The position numbers were made by a program, and so were the translations under genes. This document shows, one piece after another, positions 8,313 through 28,668 of a DNA stretch of 28,668 nt; positions within the stretch are counted from its first letter, which is position 1; the number at the start of each line of letters is the position of its first letter. Origin of the DNA: a virus; IMG/VR virus record IMGVR_UViG_3300036861_000151, positions 1 to 28,668 of that record; one strand, 5' to 3'. The notes below the pieces were generated by a model that saw only the letters and a program-made list of their open reading frames with translations, was not told the DNA's origin and did no database searches.

Positions 8313-8712
8313 GCAAACCGGCCTAAGCTGGACAACTCTGTCGGTGGATGATTCTAGCGGCGCGGTCAAGGACATCAGAAATGATGTCACTTCGTTCGAT
8401 TTTGCTACGCCGCGGGACGTGCAGGAAGTCACTGGCGTGGATAAGGCGGCAACGGAAAGGCTGCTTTTGCTTGCCGATTTTTCCATCACGCTGAACGGCG
8501 TGTTCAACCCCGACGCCAGCCTGTCCCATGCGGTGTTCTCGACCGTCCCGTCCACCTCGGTGGCGCGGACCGTGTCGCTGGGCATCGGGGGGAAGACGCT
8601 CGCGAACGAGACGCTGTTCACCGACTATGCGCTGAGCAGGTCGGAGAAGGGTGAACTGACCTGGAAGGCGCCGGGCGTGCTCGCCAACGGCACTGTCCCG
8701 ACTTGGGCCTAG
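8296..8712 (+). CDS. Tail tube protein B (paralogue of the 6620 gene)
   Basis: 138-residue tail tube-type protein starting at GTG 8296, 17 bases before the end of the endonuclease gene, with AAGGAA as ribosome binding site. VTGVDKAATER, ITLNGVFNPD and HAVFSTVP align ungapped with tube protein A, but the C-terminal beta domain is missing. The TRSEKGELTWKAP-like segment before the end matches the NEDGSLTFKTQ region of A. The first 180 bases are markedly less GC-rich, with unusual codons (for example ATT CCT AAG, AGA AAT GAT), then composition switches near 8490 to that of the operon. This suggests recent replacement together with the endonuclease gene upstream. Confidence 0.78.
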   Translation: MSTIPKQTGLSWTTLSVDDSSGAVKDIRNDVTSFDFATPRDVQEVTGVDKAATERLLLLADFSITLNGVFNPDASLSHAVFSTVPSTSVARTVSLGIGGKTLANETLFTDYALSRSEKGELTWKAPGVLANGTVPTWA

Positions 8713-17456: not shown

Positions 17457-17602
17457 CAGGGCTTTCTCCTGGTGTCGGCCCCGGGACACCGCACGTGTCG
17501 CCGGGGCTTGCCATACCTACTGGCAGAAAGCTTGCGCCGACCCTGGGAAGTTGTCAAGCTCTCGTCCTGATACTGTCCGGTCTGAGACAGGAAGGGAGAG
17601 CC
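17457..17602. promoter_or_regulatory. Divergent region between leftward operon and integrase
   Basis: This 146-bp gap holds several small inverted repeats: GGTGTC/GACACC (about 17471-17490), TGCCA/TGGCA (about 17510-17526) and CTGTC/GACAG (about 17574-17591). Serine integrase attachment sites are short, with imperfect inverted repeats and lie beside the gene, so one of these (or 18920-19340) may be attP. I cannot identify the core. TTGTCA at 17552-17557 is a -35 candidate for the integrase without a well-spaced -10. AGGAAGGGAGAG before 17603 is the integrase ribosome binding site. Confidence 0.4.
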
Positions 17603-18919
17603 ATGGCCGACATAGGATACGCCCGCGTCAGCAAGCGGCTGCAGAACCTCGACCTGCAGATCGACGCGCTTGAGCGCGCCGGCTGCCAGGTGATCTACCG
17701 CGACAAGATGTCAGGCGCCAGGGACGACCGACCCGAGTTCACCAAGGCCCTAGCCGCCACCGGTCCCGGCGACCGGCTCACCGTCTGGCGGCTCGACCGC
17801 GCCGGCCGCAGCCTCCAGCACCTCCTGCAGATCGTCGACGACCTCCAGCAGCGCAACGCCCGCTTCCGCTCGCTCAACGAGAGCATCGACACCTCGGGCG
17901 CGACCGGCCGGCTCATCTTCCACATCCTCGCCGCCCTCGCCGAGTTCGAGCGGGAACTGATGATCGAGCGGGTCATGGCCGGCCTGGAGGCCGCGCGAGC
18001 CCGCGGCCGCGTCGGAGGGCCGGCACCCTATGGGATCGGCCCCGACCACACCTCGATCGTAGAGGCCGAGGCCACGCTCCTCCTCGAGGCCGCGCAGCGA
18101 ATCCTCGACGGCGAGACGGTCAGCCACCTCGTGGACGACTGGAACGACCGCGGCTCCACCACCCGCAAAGGTGGGAGCTGGTCCGTCACCTCCATCCGGA
18201 CACACCTGCTGAACCCCCGGGTCGTCCCGGTCCTCGGCCAGGACACCCACAACCAGCTCAAGATGCTGTTCGGCGACCCCGACCGCCAACACCTCGGCCG
18301 ACCCGCGCAACACCTCCTCAGCGGGATACTGCGCTGCGGCACCTGCACCCAGCCGCTGTACGGCGGTCACGTCACCGGCGACCGCTGGGTGTACCGGTGC
18401 CGGAAGGCGCGCGGCTCCGGCGGCCGTTTCCACGGCTGCGGCGGGGTCACCGTCTCGCTCCCCAAGGCGGACACCTGGGCGGCCGAGGCGTTCATCGTGG
18501 CCATCTGCGGGGAAGAGAGCGCCCTCCCCGGCCACGTCGCCGCGCAGCTCGAGGCAACCCAGGCCGGCGTGCCAACCCCCGTGGAGCTTGCACGCGAGCA
18601 GGAGGAGCTGGCCGAGCTGGAGGCGGTGCTTGCCACCAGGTTCGCCACTCCGGAGCACTGGGCACGGGCGACCAAGCTGGAGACGCGCGCTGCCGCGGCT
18701 GCGCAGCACCAGCGCGCCATGCCGGACCTGGCCGCACTGGCCAGCCTGCCCAGAACCGAAGCCAAGCTCCACGACCGCTGGGACGCCTGGACGGTCCCGG
18801 AGCGGCGCACCTGGCTCAAACGCGTGTTCGAGTATGTCACCGTGGCGCCGGCGCCGGCAGGGACGCACCACCGCGGCAGCGACGTCGGTAGGCGGCTTGC
18901 CCCGGAGTGGCGGTTGTAA
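17603..18919 (+). CDS. Large serine integrase
   Basis: 438-residue site-specific recombinase that would integrate the circle into the host chromosome at attB. ATG 17603 is chosen because GGAAGGGAGAG precedes it and the resolvase domain starts at once. Residues 1-135 are the catalytic domain: IGYARVS with Ser10 as nucleophile, YRDKMSGARDDRPEF, and LTVWRLDRAGRS with the active-site arginines. Residues 140-240 are the recombinase DNA-binding domain (APYGIGPD, STTRKGGSWSVTSIRTHLLN). A zinc ribbon follows (Cys245, Cys248, Cys266, Cys279), then a coiled-coil (ELAREQEELAELEAVLATRF) and a basic tail. Length is at the short end for phage serine integrases. Use as a dimer resolvase in a plasmid state is an alternative. 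Confidence 0.93.
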   Translation: MADIGYARVSKRLQNLDLQIDALERAGCQVIYRDKMSGARDDRPEFTKALAATGPGDRLTVWRLDRAGRSLQHLLQIVDDLQQRNARFRSLNESIDTSGATGRLIFHILAALAEFERELMIERVMAGLEAARARGRVGGPAPYGIGPDHTSIVEAEATLLLEAAQRILDGETVSHLVDDWNDRGSTTRKGGSWSVTSIRTHLLNPRVVPVLGQDTHNQLKMLFGDPDRQHLGRPAQHLLSGILRCGTCTQPLYGGHVTGDRWVYRCRKARGSGGRFHGCGGVTVSLPKADTWAAEAFIVAICGEESALPGHVAAQLEATQAGVPTPVELAREQEELAELEAVLATRFATPEHWARATKLETRAAAAAQHQRAMPDLAALASLPRTEAKLHDRWDAWTVPERRTWLKRVFEYVTVAPAPAGTHHRGSDVGRRLAPEWRL

Positions 18920-24124: not shown

Positions 24125-24273
24125 CGCACCTCGTGTGCCAGACCTGCGGCTACGAAAACTGGAGCTGGTCCGCCCAGAAGCCCGACCCCATCGCGGCCGA
24201 CTTCCGCGCCGCACACGAGAGCCGCGGCCACCAAGTACTCAACAAGCCCATCCGTTCGAGGAAGACCTCGTGA
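24121..24273 (+). CDS. 50-residue zinc-motif protein
   Basis: ATG 24121 overlaps the end of the primase gene (ATGA) and its own TGA overlaps the next GTG. The protein begins THLVCQTCGYENWSW, with a Cys-x2-Cys knuckle, and has two histidines further on (AHESRGHQ), so a single small zinc site is likely. The end is basic (NKPIRSRKTS). Function unknown; perhaps an accessory nucleic-acid binder. Confidence 0.6.
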   Translation: MTHLVCQTCGYENWSWSAQKPDPIAADFRAAHESRGHQVLNKPIRSRKTS

Positions 24274-24854
24274 CCCGCCGCGGCGAGGTCGAGGTCAGAC
24301 ACGGCTACTCGATCGAACACATTGACAGGTTGACCCGCGTCGCGACCAAACGTGCGTTCGGCGCCGGGCTTGATCCTGACGAGCGGTACGCCGCCGCTTT
24401 CCATGGCATTGTGGTGGCCCTCTGCGAGTCCAGCACCCCACCATCATCGCGAGTGCTCATTCGTGCCGGCGGCCGCGCCATCCTCCAAGCCGAAGAAGCC
24501 GAGCAGGGCTACCTTGGCTATAACCAGAGGGACGTGTGGGCCGGCAGCATGGCCTCCGGCCGGTTCGCCAAGTACTGGACTCCTGGCACCGGCCCACGCC
24601 CCGAGGATTGCGTCGACCCGATCGCCATGCGGCAGATCCTTCCACGCCTCACCGAGACGGAACGCCAAGCGCTCATGCTGCTGGCCCTGCTGGAGTCCTA
24701 CGACGACGCAGCCGCCGCAGCCGGGGTCAGCTACCGCACCTTCCACGCTCGGATCGCCCGCGCCCGTGCCTCGTACTTCCGGTGGTGGCATGAGCATGAG
24801 CAGCCAACCGGGCTGTGGAAGACAGACCAGCGGATCGCCAGGCGGCCAGCATGA
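24270..24854 (+). CDS. Sigma factor-like HTH protein
   Basis: 194 residues from GTG 24270, coupled by GTGA overlap; a start at 24135 reads the previous gene in another frame. The first part (YSIEHIDRLTRVATKRAFGA, PDERYAAAFHGIVVAL, LIRAGGRAILQAEE) resembles the helical region 2 of sigma-like phage proteins. The C-terminal part (LPRLTETERQALMLLALLES, DDAAAAAGVSYRTFHARIARAR) is a sigma-70 region 4-type helix-turn-helix. This is known in actinophages and may switch on late genes or regulate replication genes. Direct promoter recognition is inference. Confidence 0.8.
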   Translation: MTRRGEVEVRHGYSIEHIDRLTRVATKRAFGAGLDPDERYAAAFHGIVVALCESSTPPSSRVLIRAGGRAILQAEEAEQGYLGYNQRDVWAGSMASGRFAKYWTPGTGPRPEDCVDPIAMRQILPRLTETERQALMLLALLESYDDAAAAAGVSYRTFHARIARARASYFRWWHEHEQPTGLWKTDQRIARRPA

Positions 24855-25105
24855 GCAAGGGGTGGGAGAGCGGCAGCACCCGCGCATGGCGCAGGACCAG
24901 ACGTGCCGTCCTCGAACGGGACCGGTACCGCTGCCAGCTCCAGCTCCCCGGCTGCACCACCCGCGCCACCACCGCACACCATGTTAAAGGCAAGGCGATG
25001 GGTGACGACCCCGCCCACCTGGTGGCCGCATGCTCCAGCTGCAACCTCAAGATCGGCGACCCGACCCGACATGACCCCGACCCGAGGCCATGGCACGGGT
25101 GGTGA
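24851..25105 (+). CDS. HNH endonuclease (packaging-associated type)
   Basis: 84 residues from ATG 24851 (ATGA overlap). It has the compact phage HNH layout: RRTRRAVLERDRYRCQLQ, GCTTRATTAHHVKG with the HH pair, and LVAACSSCNLKIGD closing with CSSCN. Such short HNH proteins typically sit beside terminase genes and help terminase cutting at cos sites. Here it is at the end of the replication operon, and the terminase genes lie beyond an inverted block. A role with the terminase is likely but inferred. Confidence 0.88.
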   Translation: MSKGWESGSTRAWRRTRRAVLERDRYRCQLQLPGCTTRATTAHHVKGKAMGDDPAHLVAACSSCNLKIGDPTRHDPDPRPWHGW

Positions 25106-25205
25106 TTCAAAATTGAATCAGCGAATCGGACAAGCCGCCGAAAAGTTACCTCAGCTTCCGGAGGGGCGGACAGGGCGCGGAGGCTGTTTCTCCCTCCCCG
25201 CGTTT

Positions 25206-25218
25206 CCGCAGGTCAGAG
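25206..25218 (+). repeat. 13-bp direct repeat, copy 1
   Basis: CCGCAGGTCAGAG, identical to 25248-25260. The copies are 42 bp apart, four helical turns, so proteins bound to them would be on the same face of the DNA. Confidence 0.65.
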
Positions 25219-25247
25219 GCCCGTACGAATGTTCGACCGCAGCAAAA

Positions 25248-25260
25248 CCGCAGGTCAGAG
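25248..25260 (+). repeat. 13-bp direct repeat, copy 2
   Basis: Identical to 25206-25218. It lies 58 bp left of the parS-like palindrome. Confidence 0.65.
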
Positions 25261-25317
25261 CGCTTCGACCATATGACCGAGTTTGCAATCCGGAGCCGGC
25301 ATGCCGTCTGAGCTGCG

Positions 25318-25331
25318 GTTTCACGTGAAAC
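25318..25331. promoter_or_regulatory. parS-type palindrome GTTTCACGTGAAAC
   Basis: A perfect 14-bp palindrome identical to the parS core bound by chromosomal ParB in Streptomyces and matching 15 of 16 bases of the wider bacterial consensus (with flanking G and A). No ParA or ParB is encoded in the circle, so if it works as parS it must use the host's ParB. It ends one base before the -35 element of the next promoter, so it could also serve as an operator. Confidence 0.7.
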
Positions 25332-25332
25332 A

Positions 25333-25362
25333 TTGGACAAATGGGACTAGGTGTGTTACACT
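25333..25362 (+). promoter_or_regulatory. Promoter for the zinc-finger gene
   Basis: TTGGAC (25333-25338) and TACACT (25357-25362) are 18 bp apart, and AT-rich sequence follows. Transcription would start near 25369, just before the start of the zinc-finger gene. The parS-like palindrome abuts the -35. Confidence 0.6.
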
Positions 25363-25391
25363 TAATTAATATCAGCACCGTGGCGAAAGAA

Positions 25392-25937
25392 ATGGGAATG
25401 GCCGTCATGCACTTGGACACCGACGGGCTCGACGACATCATCGCCGCCATCGCCGACCTTGCCGACAACCCCGTTACGGATAGCTCACATCGGCACCCCC
25501 CGACCAGGGCTCCTCGGCGGACCGTCCCGGCCGTCCCCTGCTTCGCCTGCCAGAAGCCGATCACCGGCGAGCTGTGGGTGCAGCCCGAACACAAGGTCAA
25601 CAAGCACGAGTGGGAGCCGACCTACTTCTGCAAGACGTGCGCGCACATCCCCGTCCCGTCGAAGCATGGTGGTACCCGCACCATCGCCGGCGGCGGGCCT
25701 GGTGTGCGGTGTGAGTGGTGCGGTCGTGTCTTCCACGCTCGGGCGCACTGGCGGGTCTACTGCACCCCGGAGTGCCGTCAGGCGGTCGCCTCCCGCAGCT
25801 ACTACGAGACACACCGGCAGGTCGCCCTGACCTCCCATACCTGCGAGGTGTGCGACCGATCGTTCACGCCGTCCAGGTCGGATGCCAAGACCTGTTCCAG
25901 TGCCTGCCGTCAGAAGGCCTACAGATCACGCCGGTAG
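25392..25937 (+). CDS. Protein with three Cys4 zinc modules
   Basis: 181 residues from ATG 25392, which suits the promoter; ATG 25398 is a close alternative, and starts before 25369 would precede the transcript. The N-terminal 30 residues are an acidic helix (LDTDGLDDIIAAIADLAD). Three four-cysteine modules follow: Cys50/53/80/83; Cys107/110/124/128; and Cys151/154/168/172. The last two share the form C-x2-C-(R)-x-F...C-x3-C-R-Q and are clearly related by duplication. This form is common in small actinobacterial and phage proteins of unknown role, thought to bind nucleic acid. It is a monocistronic unit whose end overlaps the portal gene end by 12 bp, tail to tail. Confidence 0.75.
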   Translation: MGMAVMHLDTDGLDDIIAAIADLADNPVTDSSHRHPPTRAPRRTVPAVPCFACQKPITGELWVQPEHKVNKHEWEPTYFCKTCAHIPVPSKHGGTRTIAGGGPGVRCEWCGRVFHARAHWRVYCTPECRQAVASRSYYETHRQVALTSHTCEVCDRSFTPSRSDAKTCSSACRQKAYRSRR

Positions 25938-27161
25938 AGGCGCGGTCTCCGCGGGGTCGCCGGGCACCGGTGTCGGGGACATGCGCATGGCGGGTAGGCC
26001 GACGGTGGCGGCCGCGTCGTCGGGGTCGACGCCGGCGCCGACCAGGGCCGCGAACGCCGTCGCCCTGGAGTCCCGTTCGGCGTTGTCGCCTTCGCGGTCG
26101 GGTGGTTCCGGGTCGCCGTGGTCCAGCTCGAGGCCCTGGGTGGTGGCGCCGAACAGGGGCAGCAGCCGGCTATTCGCTGCTTCCTTGATACGGCACAGCC
26201 GCGGCCGGACCAGCCACTTCCCGAACGAGGTGGCGCCCGCCTCCGCGTTCGCTTTGTTGATCTCGTCCGAAATGCCGAGCACGTGGCCGTGGATGCCGAA
26301 CGCCTCGCGGATGATCTCGCGGGAGACCTTGCGAAGCTCGGCGAACTGCATGTCCCGCTGGCTGATCGTGCGGTCTTTCCACGTGGCTTTCTCGAGGATG
26401 GCGACCCGATGGGCAGCCGACACGCCCTGGTGCTGCTCACGCCACCGGTCGGTCATCTCGTTGAACTCGTCGTCGGACAGCCGCTCTGGCACTTCGATGA
26501 TGCCGCCGGGTTCCGCGGAGTTGATGAAGAAGTTTCGGTTCCATTGGGCGCTGTAGCGGGCGGCGTCGAGGTCGACGAGGATCGCCTGGACCGGCCCGAG
26601 TCCCCTGTAGGGGTCCAGGGGGTTGGGGTACTTGATCTGCACGACCTCGCCCACCTGCAGGGGGATCTGCTCACCGTCCGGGCCGGTGTAGATGTACCCG
26701 CTGATGAACCGGGTCGGGTGGGGGACCGGGGCCATCCTGTCCGGCCGGACCGTCCACAGCTCCAGCGGCAGGGCCGGGAACCTCGGGTCGGTGGCGATCA
26801 CCCACCACCCTTCCCCGGTCAAATCGAGATGCTGCTGGGTCGCTTCGACGAACGACTGGCGGGTCTCCCACGGGTTCGGCCGGTTCCACAGGTCAAGCGC
26901 GGCATGTCGGGTGACCTGGGTGCGGGTCTCTTCGCCTTCGTAGCGGACCCGCCCGTCCATGGTCTTGCGGTACAGGCTCCAGTCGACCTGTGACGTGCTC
27001 TCGCTGATGCGGTGCACGATTGAGAACAGGGTGCCGACCGACCCGTACGCCTGGAGCTGGGTGGTGGCGGTGTCGGTGCGGAACAGCGGCATGCGCGGCA
27101 CGCTCCGCGGGGCGAGGGGAACGGGGCTCTGGTTGCGGAGGAGCCGCAGGGTGGACTTCAT
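25926..27161 (-). CDS. Portal protein (HK97-type)
   Basis: 411 residues forming the dodecameric DNA channel at one head vertex. ATG 27161 overlaps the previous TGA (ATGA), with AGGTGA upstream. The sequence shows the usual actinophage portal order: VGTLFSIVHRISESTSQVDW, ALDLWNRPNPWETRQSFVEA, LDLTGEGWWVI, LELWTVRPDRM, VVQIKYPNPLDPYRGLGPVQ, NRNFFINSAEPGGIIEVPERL, FAELRKVSREIIREAFGIHG, VLGISDEINKANAEAGATSFG, RPRLCRIKEAANSRLLPLFG. The C-terminus is acidic and Pro-rich. It is transcribed with the terminase genes, away from protease and capsid, which is unusual. Confidence 0.95.
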   Translation of the reverse strand: MKSTLRLLRNQSPVPLAPRSVPRMPLFRTDTATTQLQAYGSVGTLFSIVHRISESTSQVDWSLYRKTMDGRVRYEGEETRTQVTRHAALDLWNRPNPWETRQSFVEATQQHLDLTGEGWWVIATDPRFPALPLELWTVRPDRMAPVPHPTRFISGYIYTGPDGEQIPLQVGEVVQIKYPNPLDPYRGLGPVQAILVDLDAARYSAQWNRNFFINSAEPGGIIEVPERLSDDEFNEMTDRWREQHQGVSAAHRVAILEKATWKDRTISQRDMQFAELRKVSREIIREAFGIHGHVLGISDEINKANAEAGATSFGKWLVRPRLCRIKEAANSRLLPLFGATTQGLELDHGDPEPPDREGDNAERDSRATAFAALVGAGVDPDDAAATVGLPAMRMSPTPVPGDPAETAPLPA

Positions 27162-27406
27162 CGCTCACCTGCCCGCAGCTCGAGGACCAGCAGCGCAACG
27201 CCGGCGACGACCAGGCCGAGGGGGATGGCCACCATGGCGGCGGCCGCGGTGAAGCACCCTCCGGCGAGGATCGTCAGACCATGCTCGGCCGCGATGGTCA
27301 GCAGCCAGCCACGCCGCCTGGCGGCGCCGGCGGTGCGCGAGCGCTGTTCGCGTCGGGCCTGCCGTGCTGCCTTCCAGCCGACCCCGATCAACTCCATCGT
27401 GCTCAT
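27158..27406 (-). CDS. Small membrane protein between terminase and portal
   Basis: 82 residues. ATG 27406 is chosen because GGGAG lies 6 nt upstream; the in-frame ATG 27412 is too close to it. After a basic helical N-terminus (GWKAARQARREQRSRTAGAA) come hydrophobic stretches at about 44-58 and 59-77 (AAAMVAIPLGLVVAGVALLV), giving one long or two short membrane spans. Its end overlaps the portal start. Small membrane proteins at this spot are seen in some actinophages and have no established role. A holin-like function is possible, but the position in the packaging operon argues against it. Confidence 0.68.
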   Translation of the reverse strand: MSTMELIGVGWKAARQARREQRSRTAGAARRRGWLLTIAAEHGLTILAGGCFTAAAAMVAIPLGLVVAGVALLVLELRAGER

Positions 27407-27420
27407 GGGCATCTCCCTCG

Positions 27421-28668
27421 TTAGTAATGGAGGATACGCAGGCCGACCTTGCTCGGCGCTGGCATGGTCTGGGCGGCATAGCAGGCGCCGGCGGCGGCAT
27501 AGGCGGCGTCGACGTGGCCAGCACCTCGGCGGACGAACCGCCATCCGTCGCCGACATGGAGCTTCGAGGCGCCGCTGACGTGGCTATCTAGGAGCGCGTC
27601 GCCGGGGTGCACCACCCGTCGCGCCAGCGCCAGGTCGGCGAGTCCCTGGCATGCCTCCCCGACCTTCCCGCCGGTCAGCTCCACGCTGCCCGGCCGTGAC
27701 CTGAGAAGGGGCGCGAGAGCCGCGGCGGGCCCGCTCGGGTACCAGGCAAGCTGGACGGGCTGGAGCTGGTCCAGGACGCCTGAGATTGCGAACCTGGCTT
27801 CGTCGGTTGAGCGCCACGCCGCGATGATCTGCACCCGGACGCGTCCGTCGTCGGTGACCGCCGCAGCGGCCAGGGTGACGTGGGCCGAGTCGGGCGCCAC
27901 GTCCACGCACGCGGCGATCCGGTCCCGTTTGGTCGCAAGGCTGCCTTGCGGGTCGGCGCACGCCTTCCATGCGCCGATGTCGATGGCCGTGTCGAGGTGG
28001 TCGACCTTCTGGCAGAGGACCTCGGTGCGGAACACCTCGGGGGTGTCGGTGCCGAGCGCGGACCGGATCGCGGGCTCGCCGATCACGTGGCCGAGGCCCG
28101 GGTTGGCCTGCGCCCAGCCTCGCGGGTCGTCGAGCTCGCAGTCTTCGGCGGCGGACCACTCGAACAGTCCGATGGAGGGGTCGCGGCCGACCCGGGCGGC
28201 GTCGCGGAGCTGGTTGAGCACTACACTCTCATCGTCGCCCGCGTTGCTCATGGCCCAGAGTTGCGCGCGTGGCCTGGCCATTGTGGTCTTCGAGACTGCG
28301 CTCCAGGCTTTCCAGTCGTGCTGTTCGCGCAGCTCGTCGATGTTCACCTCATCGAACGGGTAGCCTCGCCCAGCCTTGCGGTTCATCGCCCGGATCAGGT
28401 ACTTGCCCTTGCTGGTCAGCCAGAACTTCTCGTCCCCGTTGACGTTGCGGACCCCACCCCACTCGGCCTCCAGATCGGGGCACTCGTGGATGGTCTCCTG
28501 GCAGAGCGTCCACTGCTCACGGGCTAGGGCGACGTCCTGCGCGACGCCGAGGATGTACCGGGCGCCGTCCATGTAGAGGCGCCACAGTGAGATGGTGCGC
28601 TTCACGCTGCTCTTGCCGTTCTGGCGGGCGACCAGCACGACGACCGTCCGGAACCTGTAGGTGCCGTC
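27421..28668 (-). CDS. terL: Terminase large subunit, main part (joins 1-325 across the circle)
   Basis: Continuation of the large terminase to its TAA stop. Bases 28542-28668 repeat the first 127 of the window. After the Walker A loop (ARQNGKS) the ATPase domain shows a Walker B-like segment ending in NIDE, followed by LRE, and a coupling-motif candidate in LWAMSNAGDD. The C-terminal half (from about AACVDVAPDSAHV) fits the RNase H-like nuclease domain, with acidic residues at the ends of strands and a final GHVDAAYAAAGACYAA helix common in actinophage terminases. The full length of about 481 residues is normal for the family. It is followed on the same strand by a small membrane protein gene and the portal gene. 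Function is secure; assignment of individual nuclease residues is inference. Confidence 0.93.
   Translation of the reverse strand, partial: DGTYRFRTVVVLVARQNGKSSVKRTISLWRLYMDGARYILGVAQDVALAREQWTLCQETIHECPDLEAEWGGVRNVNGDEKFWLTSKGKYLIRAMNRKAGRGYPFDEVNIDELREQHDWKAWSAVSKTTMARPRAQLWAMSNAGDDESVVLNQLRDAARVGRDPSIGLFEWSAAEDCELDDPRGWAQANPGLGHVIGEPAIRSALGTDTPEVFRTEVLCQKVDHLDTAIDIGAWKACADPQGSLATKRDRIAACVDVAPDSAHVTLAAAAVTDDGRVRVQIIAAWRSTDEARFAISGVLDQLQPVQLAWYPSGPAAALAPLLRSRPGSVELTGGKVGEACQGLADLALARRVVHPGDALLDSHVSGASKLHVGDGWRFVRRGAGHVDAAYAAAGACYAAQTMPAPSKVGLRILHY
28542..28668. repeat. Terminal overlap, right copy
   Basis: Exact copy of bases 1-127. Removing one copy gives a circle of 28,541 bp. Position 28541+n is the same base as position n, which is how the two terminase fragments are joined. 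Confidence 0.95.

Follow-up and report, generated by a model that had tools for sequence, protein, structure and literature searches.

Chromosomal ParB recognises the parS palindrome and loads there as a spreading CTP clamp (PMC12704722). In Pseudomonas aeruginosa, ParB bound at intergenic parS represses the neighbouring genes, whereas in Bacillus subtilis the genes next to parS are unchanged upon ParB loss, an observation that runs counter to promoter control (PMC7022226). The parS-like elements of SGI1 hijack the parABS system of IncC plasmids, an effect to which the small protein Sci adds (PMC10954446). Here, we describe an exact host-type parS core in a virus record of the IMG/VR collection (IMGVR_UViG_3300036861_000151), whose whole stretch of 28,668 bp was analysed and is referred to as the window.

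A host-type parS site in a phage record

The window contains the parS core palindrome GTTTCACGTGAAAC at 25318-25331 (no strand assigned) as an exact 14/14 match. About 2e-5 copies per window are expected from base composition, and this is the single match in the window even when up to three mismatches are allowed. The half-sites GTTTCAC and GTGAAAC are found nowhere else in the window, and the longer 16-mer consensus TGTTTCACGTGAAACA is matched at 15 of its 16 positions, the left outer base being G and not T. The preliminary description of this DNA had proposed a perfect chromosomal-type parS core, unlikely to arise by chance and placed in a noncoding region, and our analysis bears out these three points. 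For the last of them, the open reading frame listed at 25341-25937 must start later, since position 25341 falls inside the predicted promoter; its start appears to be the ATG at 25398, so parS lies in noncoding DNA. The same description had the palindrome touching the -35 element, which is not the case, as base 25332 separates parS from TTGGAC (25333-25338). The palindrome was also considered as a terminator and rejected: nothing terminator-like lies nearby, and GTTTC-ACGT-GAAAC would fold into a weak stem of 5 bp that no T run follows. The parS of the window is thus genuine, of host type and not a product of chance. Judging from established ParB-parS recognition, host ParB very likely recognises 25318-25331 in vivo; ParB is, to our knowledge, nearly universal and abundant across bacteria.

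The record has a phage gene set comprising terminase, portal, protease, capsid, tape measure, serine integrase and primase-polymerase. The integrase gene (17495-18919, plus strand) indicates that the virus probably resides as a prophage in the chromosome. The terminase large subunit (27421-28638, minus strand) is encoded close to the end at which the circle is opened; together with the portal gene it forms a block (25926-28638) inverted relative to protease and capsid (645-2764), and relatives such as L122 have the same unusual order. Both ends of the record are identical over 127 bp (1-127 and 28542-28668). This overlap is consistent with a circle of about 28,541 bp, in keeping with the 28.5-kb circle announced earlier, but 127 is also a k-mer length that assemblers typically use. 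Terminase and primase matches are overwhelmingly to actinobacteriophages, which points to an actinobacterium as the very probable host, gene similarity allowing no assignment finer than Actinobacteria. No terminase relatives were found in the genome contigs collection, and neither an Rfam search of the window nor PADLOC, for defence systems, gave a match.

The absence of encoded partition proteins, also put forward in the preliminary description, was confirmed by HMM searches of the record in six frames, which gave no match to ParB_N (PF02195), HTH_ParB (PF17762) or the ParA family AAA_31 (PF13614). With neither ParA nor ParB in the record, the locus is not a phage or plasmid ParABS cassette; a parS in the absence of parAB is the arrangement of an SGI1-type parS mimic. 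The location near oriC with cognate parAB, usual for chromosomal parS, is not that of this phage record.

The parS site and a zinc-protein gene in a variable cargo spot

From left to right, this part of the window is made of an HNH endonuclease gene (24815-25105, plus strand, assigned to PHROG HNH families), a conserved noncoding region just to its right (25133-25289, plus strand, 76-88% identity in L122, L126 and L129), parS, a promoter, the zinc-protein gene, and then the minus-strand portal and terminase genes. A protein encoded just upstream of the HNH gene (24135-24854) gives a weak match to sigma-70 region 4. The noncoding region holds two direct copies of the repeat CGCAGGTCAGAG (R1, 25207-25218, and R2, 25249-25260, both plus strand), and an imperfect inverted third repeat with two mismatches, CGCAGCTCAGAC (25306-25317, minus strand), abuts parS. 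A spread sample was taken of 60 phage records with a match to the block 25133-25289; in 51 of these, mostly mycobacteriophages, the match is located no more than about 165 bp from the right end of the genome. Seven genome ends were inspected, where the repeats occur in either orientation and a Gordonia end has a diverged form. Since the repeats sit at the right genome ends of actinophages, 25133-25289 would be a cos-side packaging region, and the CGCAGGTCAGAG repeats are probably terminase-binding cos repeats. The repeat string was met in a full-text literature search solely in a primer of one Streptomyces phage paper. The preliminary description mentions neither this cos-like element beside parS nor the recurrence of orphan parS in other phages. 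In most actinophage records with a match (L254, L256-L260), some 50-165 bp separate the repeats from the right end of the genome.

The predicted promoter (25333-25362, plus strand) has a -35 element read as TTGGAC or TGGACA and an extended -10, TGT-TACACT (25354-25362). It precedes the gene of a 179-residue protein (25398-25937, plus strand) with three zinc sites, made of 12 conserved cysteines in three CxxC...C..C sets. This protein was found in the window and in one related locus, L314, only. It has no family match above the cut-off, its only match in genome contigs covers 25 residues in a Parasutterella MAG, and its fold, predicted from a two-row alignment only, reaches a pLDDT of 47. No near-exact copy of the zinc-gene promoter pattern was found in IMG/VR. 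An odd palindrome, GTGTTACAC (25353-25361), overlies the -10 of the zinc gene, is unique in the window and has its core kept in L314; it may be a second operator.

The spot between the cos repeats and the end of the portal gene (25926-27161, minus strand), which forms its right border, is variable in content across relatives. It is essentially empty in L126, L315 and L317 and holds different sequence in L129, L122, L316, L318 and L319; in these eight relatives covering the spot, no parS was found there within four mismatches, and the zinc gene is absent too. Apart from the window, the zinc-protein gene was found only in L314, whose portal protein is 77% identical to that of the window. Its zinc protein (L314:4528-5070) is 54% identical, all 12 zinc-site cysteines being conserved, and the two genes differ with a dN of 0.33 and a dS of 0.72 (NG86). 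Just upstream of it stands the identical GTTTCACGTGAAAC 14-mer, while the 30-bp flanks of the site match at 11/30 and 10/30 positions and are otherwise unalignable. Despite these diverged flanks, the -10 core TGTTACACTTA is identical as well. In the window 25 nt separate parS from TACACT, against 5 nt in L314; the spacing differs by exactly 20, or about two helical turns, and parS stays promoter-proximal. If transcription is taken to begin 7 nt downstream of the -10, parS covers approximately positions -51 to -38 in the window and -31 to -18 in L314; it abuts the promoter at 1 bp from the -35 in the former and lies inside the spacer in the latter, the layout expected of a ParB-regulated promoter.

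In the same spot, parS is therefore present in both loci with the zinc gene and in none of the eight without it (Fisher exact, about 0.02), a co-occurrence that rests on two zinc-gene loci. When whole contigs of terminase or portal relatives were searched with up to two mismatches, exact parS was found in L314 and L373 only, and a further contig had a single site with two mismatches. An initial set of relatives had suggested that parS is simply not conserved, a view overturned for the zinc-gene cassette by the portal-based search that found L314. The conservation of the palindrome in relatives, which the preliminary description had made a check on its proposal, is hence not general: it is seen where the zinc gene is present, whereas the eight relatives lacking the palindrome also lack the gene. 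Identity amid diverged flanks, together with absence where the zinc gene is absent, marks parS as a site retained by selection. Since parS tracks the zinc gene and stays promoter-proximal in L314, the two appear from sequence comparison to behave as one cargo cassette, with the cos-like packaging region on its left and the portal gene on its right. In L314 (3884-4531) and L316 (5233-5886), the same spot also holds another cargo gene that is conserved and cysteine-rich, and L316 has it without zinc gene or parS.

These comparisons also bear on two other explanations. A functionless origin, whether as a chance match or as host DNA that came in with the cassette, is nearly refuted: a scan of very many windows would sometimes meet a random 14-mer, and a background of random palindromes is present in IMG/VR, but the identical 14-mer recurs in L314 despite the divergence of the protein, a dS of about 0.72 and flanks that cannot be aligned. 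Alternatively, the palindrome could be the operator of an autoregulator, bound by the zinc protein or by another regulator, the parS match being coincidental. A palindrome at a promoter is the classic operator layout, and site and gene co-occur at both loci; yet such an operator would have to be exactly the universal parS out of 16,384 perfect 14-bp palindromes, in both phages, and its half-sites are absent elsewhere in the window. We regard this explanation as improbable.

The virus probably uses host ParB as a switch or an anchor. As a switch, host ParB would load at parS beside the zinc-gene promoter, where ParB, bound and sliding, would compete with RNA polymerase. This would happen directly in L314, and in the window through adjacency and sliding; such competition is suggested because parS abuts the -35 in one locus and sits in the promoter spacer in the other. 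The zinc gene would be kept low while ParB is plentiful and released when multiplying phage copies titrate ParB, or when the ParB-CTP state changes. Repression, the titration logic and the role of the zinc protein are elements that we infer. The retention of parS at the L314 zinc promoter favours ParB control of the gene, an idea raised in the preliminary description, whose interpretation is thereby supported in part, and the outer base of the 16-mer that differs on one side in the window counts against it. We assign a probability of roughly 0.5 to this reading, in which parS and the zinc gene form a cassette, host ParB occludes the promoter and the gene responds to ParB availability. Whether promoter control is the function for which parS was selected is, in our judgement, an even question.

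Host-type parS across IMG/VR and cultured phages

The 16-mer TGTTTCACGTGAAACA occurs at 120 or more loci in IMG/VR, against 10 in the whole collection for the composition-matched palindrome ACATTGTCGACAATGT, and is thus at least 12 times commoner. Counts of the 14-mer are uninformative alone, parS and the control palindrome each having at least 120 loci. Among the 120 loci listed for each 14-mer, the site is noncoding in 35 for parS and in 3 for the control, and several copies are present in 17 and in none, respectively. The class of the window, with a noncoding site and exactly one matching flank, is represented by 11 parS loci and 1 control locus among the matches listed. A terminase large subunit is encoded in 16 of the 40 contigs with parS that were tested, and in these 16 ParB_N gave one match, weak and below the cut-off. 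Several contigs have clustered sites, with four in G035 and three each in G039 and G072. Proximity of orphan parS to terminase genes was not significant on linear contigs (p 0.23) and gave p 0.005 if these are taken as circular, the latter post hoc, so that there is a hint of clustering close to terminase and capsid genes. The records L102 (G035), L039 (G039), L005 (G072) and L271 (G079) have a terminase, two to four exact parS and no ParB_N domain.

Three cultured phages of Arthrobacter globiformis, Pureglobe5, Beagle and Pointis, also have an exact copy of TGTTTCACGTGAAACA, in each case within the gene of the capsid maturation protease (OP434452.1 13106-13119; L400:2599; L401:2599), which argues against host contamination as the whole explanation of orphan parS. 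No parS was found in AWGoat and SilentRX. The whole record of Pureglobe5 gives a weak ParB_N match only, below the cut-off, and a similar match is found in AWGoat and SilentRX. In L373, whose portal protein is 52% identical to that of the window, a perfect parS 16-mer (8340-8353) lies in the structural region, after a stop codon and ahead of the ribosome-binding site that serves the following gene. As parS is located in structural genes or promoterless gaps in L373, L039 and Pureglobe5, promoter control cannot be its general function.

The main rival explanation is borrowed partition or anchoring, in which the infecting, replicating or episomal phage genome would display parS and thereby be positioned or segregated by the ParB, ParA and SMC of its host, the promoter being incidental and the zinc protein possibly assisting as Sci does in SGI1. 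The recurrence of orphan parS, in part clustered, in phage contigs without encoded ParB, its location elsewhere at promoterless positions, within structural genes or in gaps, and the hijacking of IncC ParABS by SGI1 (PMC10954446) all speak for it. However, the serine integrase makes an integrating prophage likely and hence plasmid-type partition less needed; parS is missing from most relatives, which likewise weighs against partition being a core requirement of the phage, and it tracks the zinc-gene promoter, not the replicon. For the window we therefore consider this explanation unlikely. Multicopy parS could also act as a decoy that titrates host ParB during infection and disturbs chromosome segregation, which would account for orphan and sometimes clustered sites in unrelated phages; with one site on a small genome, a weak sponge, and most relatives devoid of parS, we give it a low probability. 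Returning to the ParB-responsive promoter, the broader proposal is that phages with host-type parS and no ParB form a class for which host ParB serves as a signal or a handle; in this lineage, the zinc-gene promoter would sense free ParB, reflecting phage copy number or host segregation state. We put this forward tentatively, at slightly under even odds.

Comparison with known systems

In the open-access literature searched, no report was found of phages exploiting host chromosomal ParB, the system hijacked by SGI1 being that of a plasmid. Mimicry of parS by a mobile element is thus already known, and the wider pattern of orphan parS in phages is apparently undescribed. Should host parS serve phages as an operator or anchor, phage gene control would be linked to host chromosome segregation, and such promoters would offer a natural test of the effects of the ParB-CTP clamp on promoters. 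The broader claim on orphan parS is already testable in the cultured phages Pureglobe5, Beagle and Pointis.

The 14-bp core of the window is identical to that of the chromosomal parS of Streptomyces and Mycobacterium. However, actinobacterial chromosomal parS lies near oriC with parAB, whereas the site described here stands at a gene promoter, in a phage that has no parAB. Like the parABS systems of the actinobacteriophages RedRock and Miko, it would represent a phage-borne centromere function, here proposed, in actinobacterial hosts, but RedRock and Miko encode both ParA and ParB and have direct repeats of an 8-bp motif (PMC7157519), while the window has neither protein and a host-type site. 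The intergenic position of parS recalls P. aeruginosa, where ParB lowers the expression of neighbours, an effect only predicted here; there, repression is chromosomal, beside oriC and with ParB encoded (PMC7022226), in contrast to its phage setting in the window. The closest likeness is to SGI1, also a mobile element with a parS mimic and no ParA or ParB, which uses the ParB of another replicon. SGI1 depends on the ParB of a helper plasmid and has two copies of an inverted-repeat site, whereas the phage of the window has a single canonical, promoter-proximal parS that we propose to be served by the chromosomal ParB of its host.
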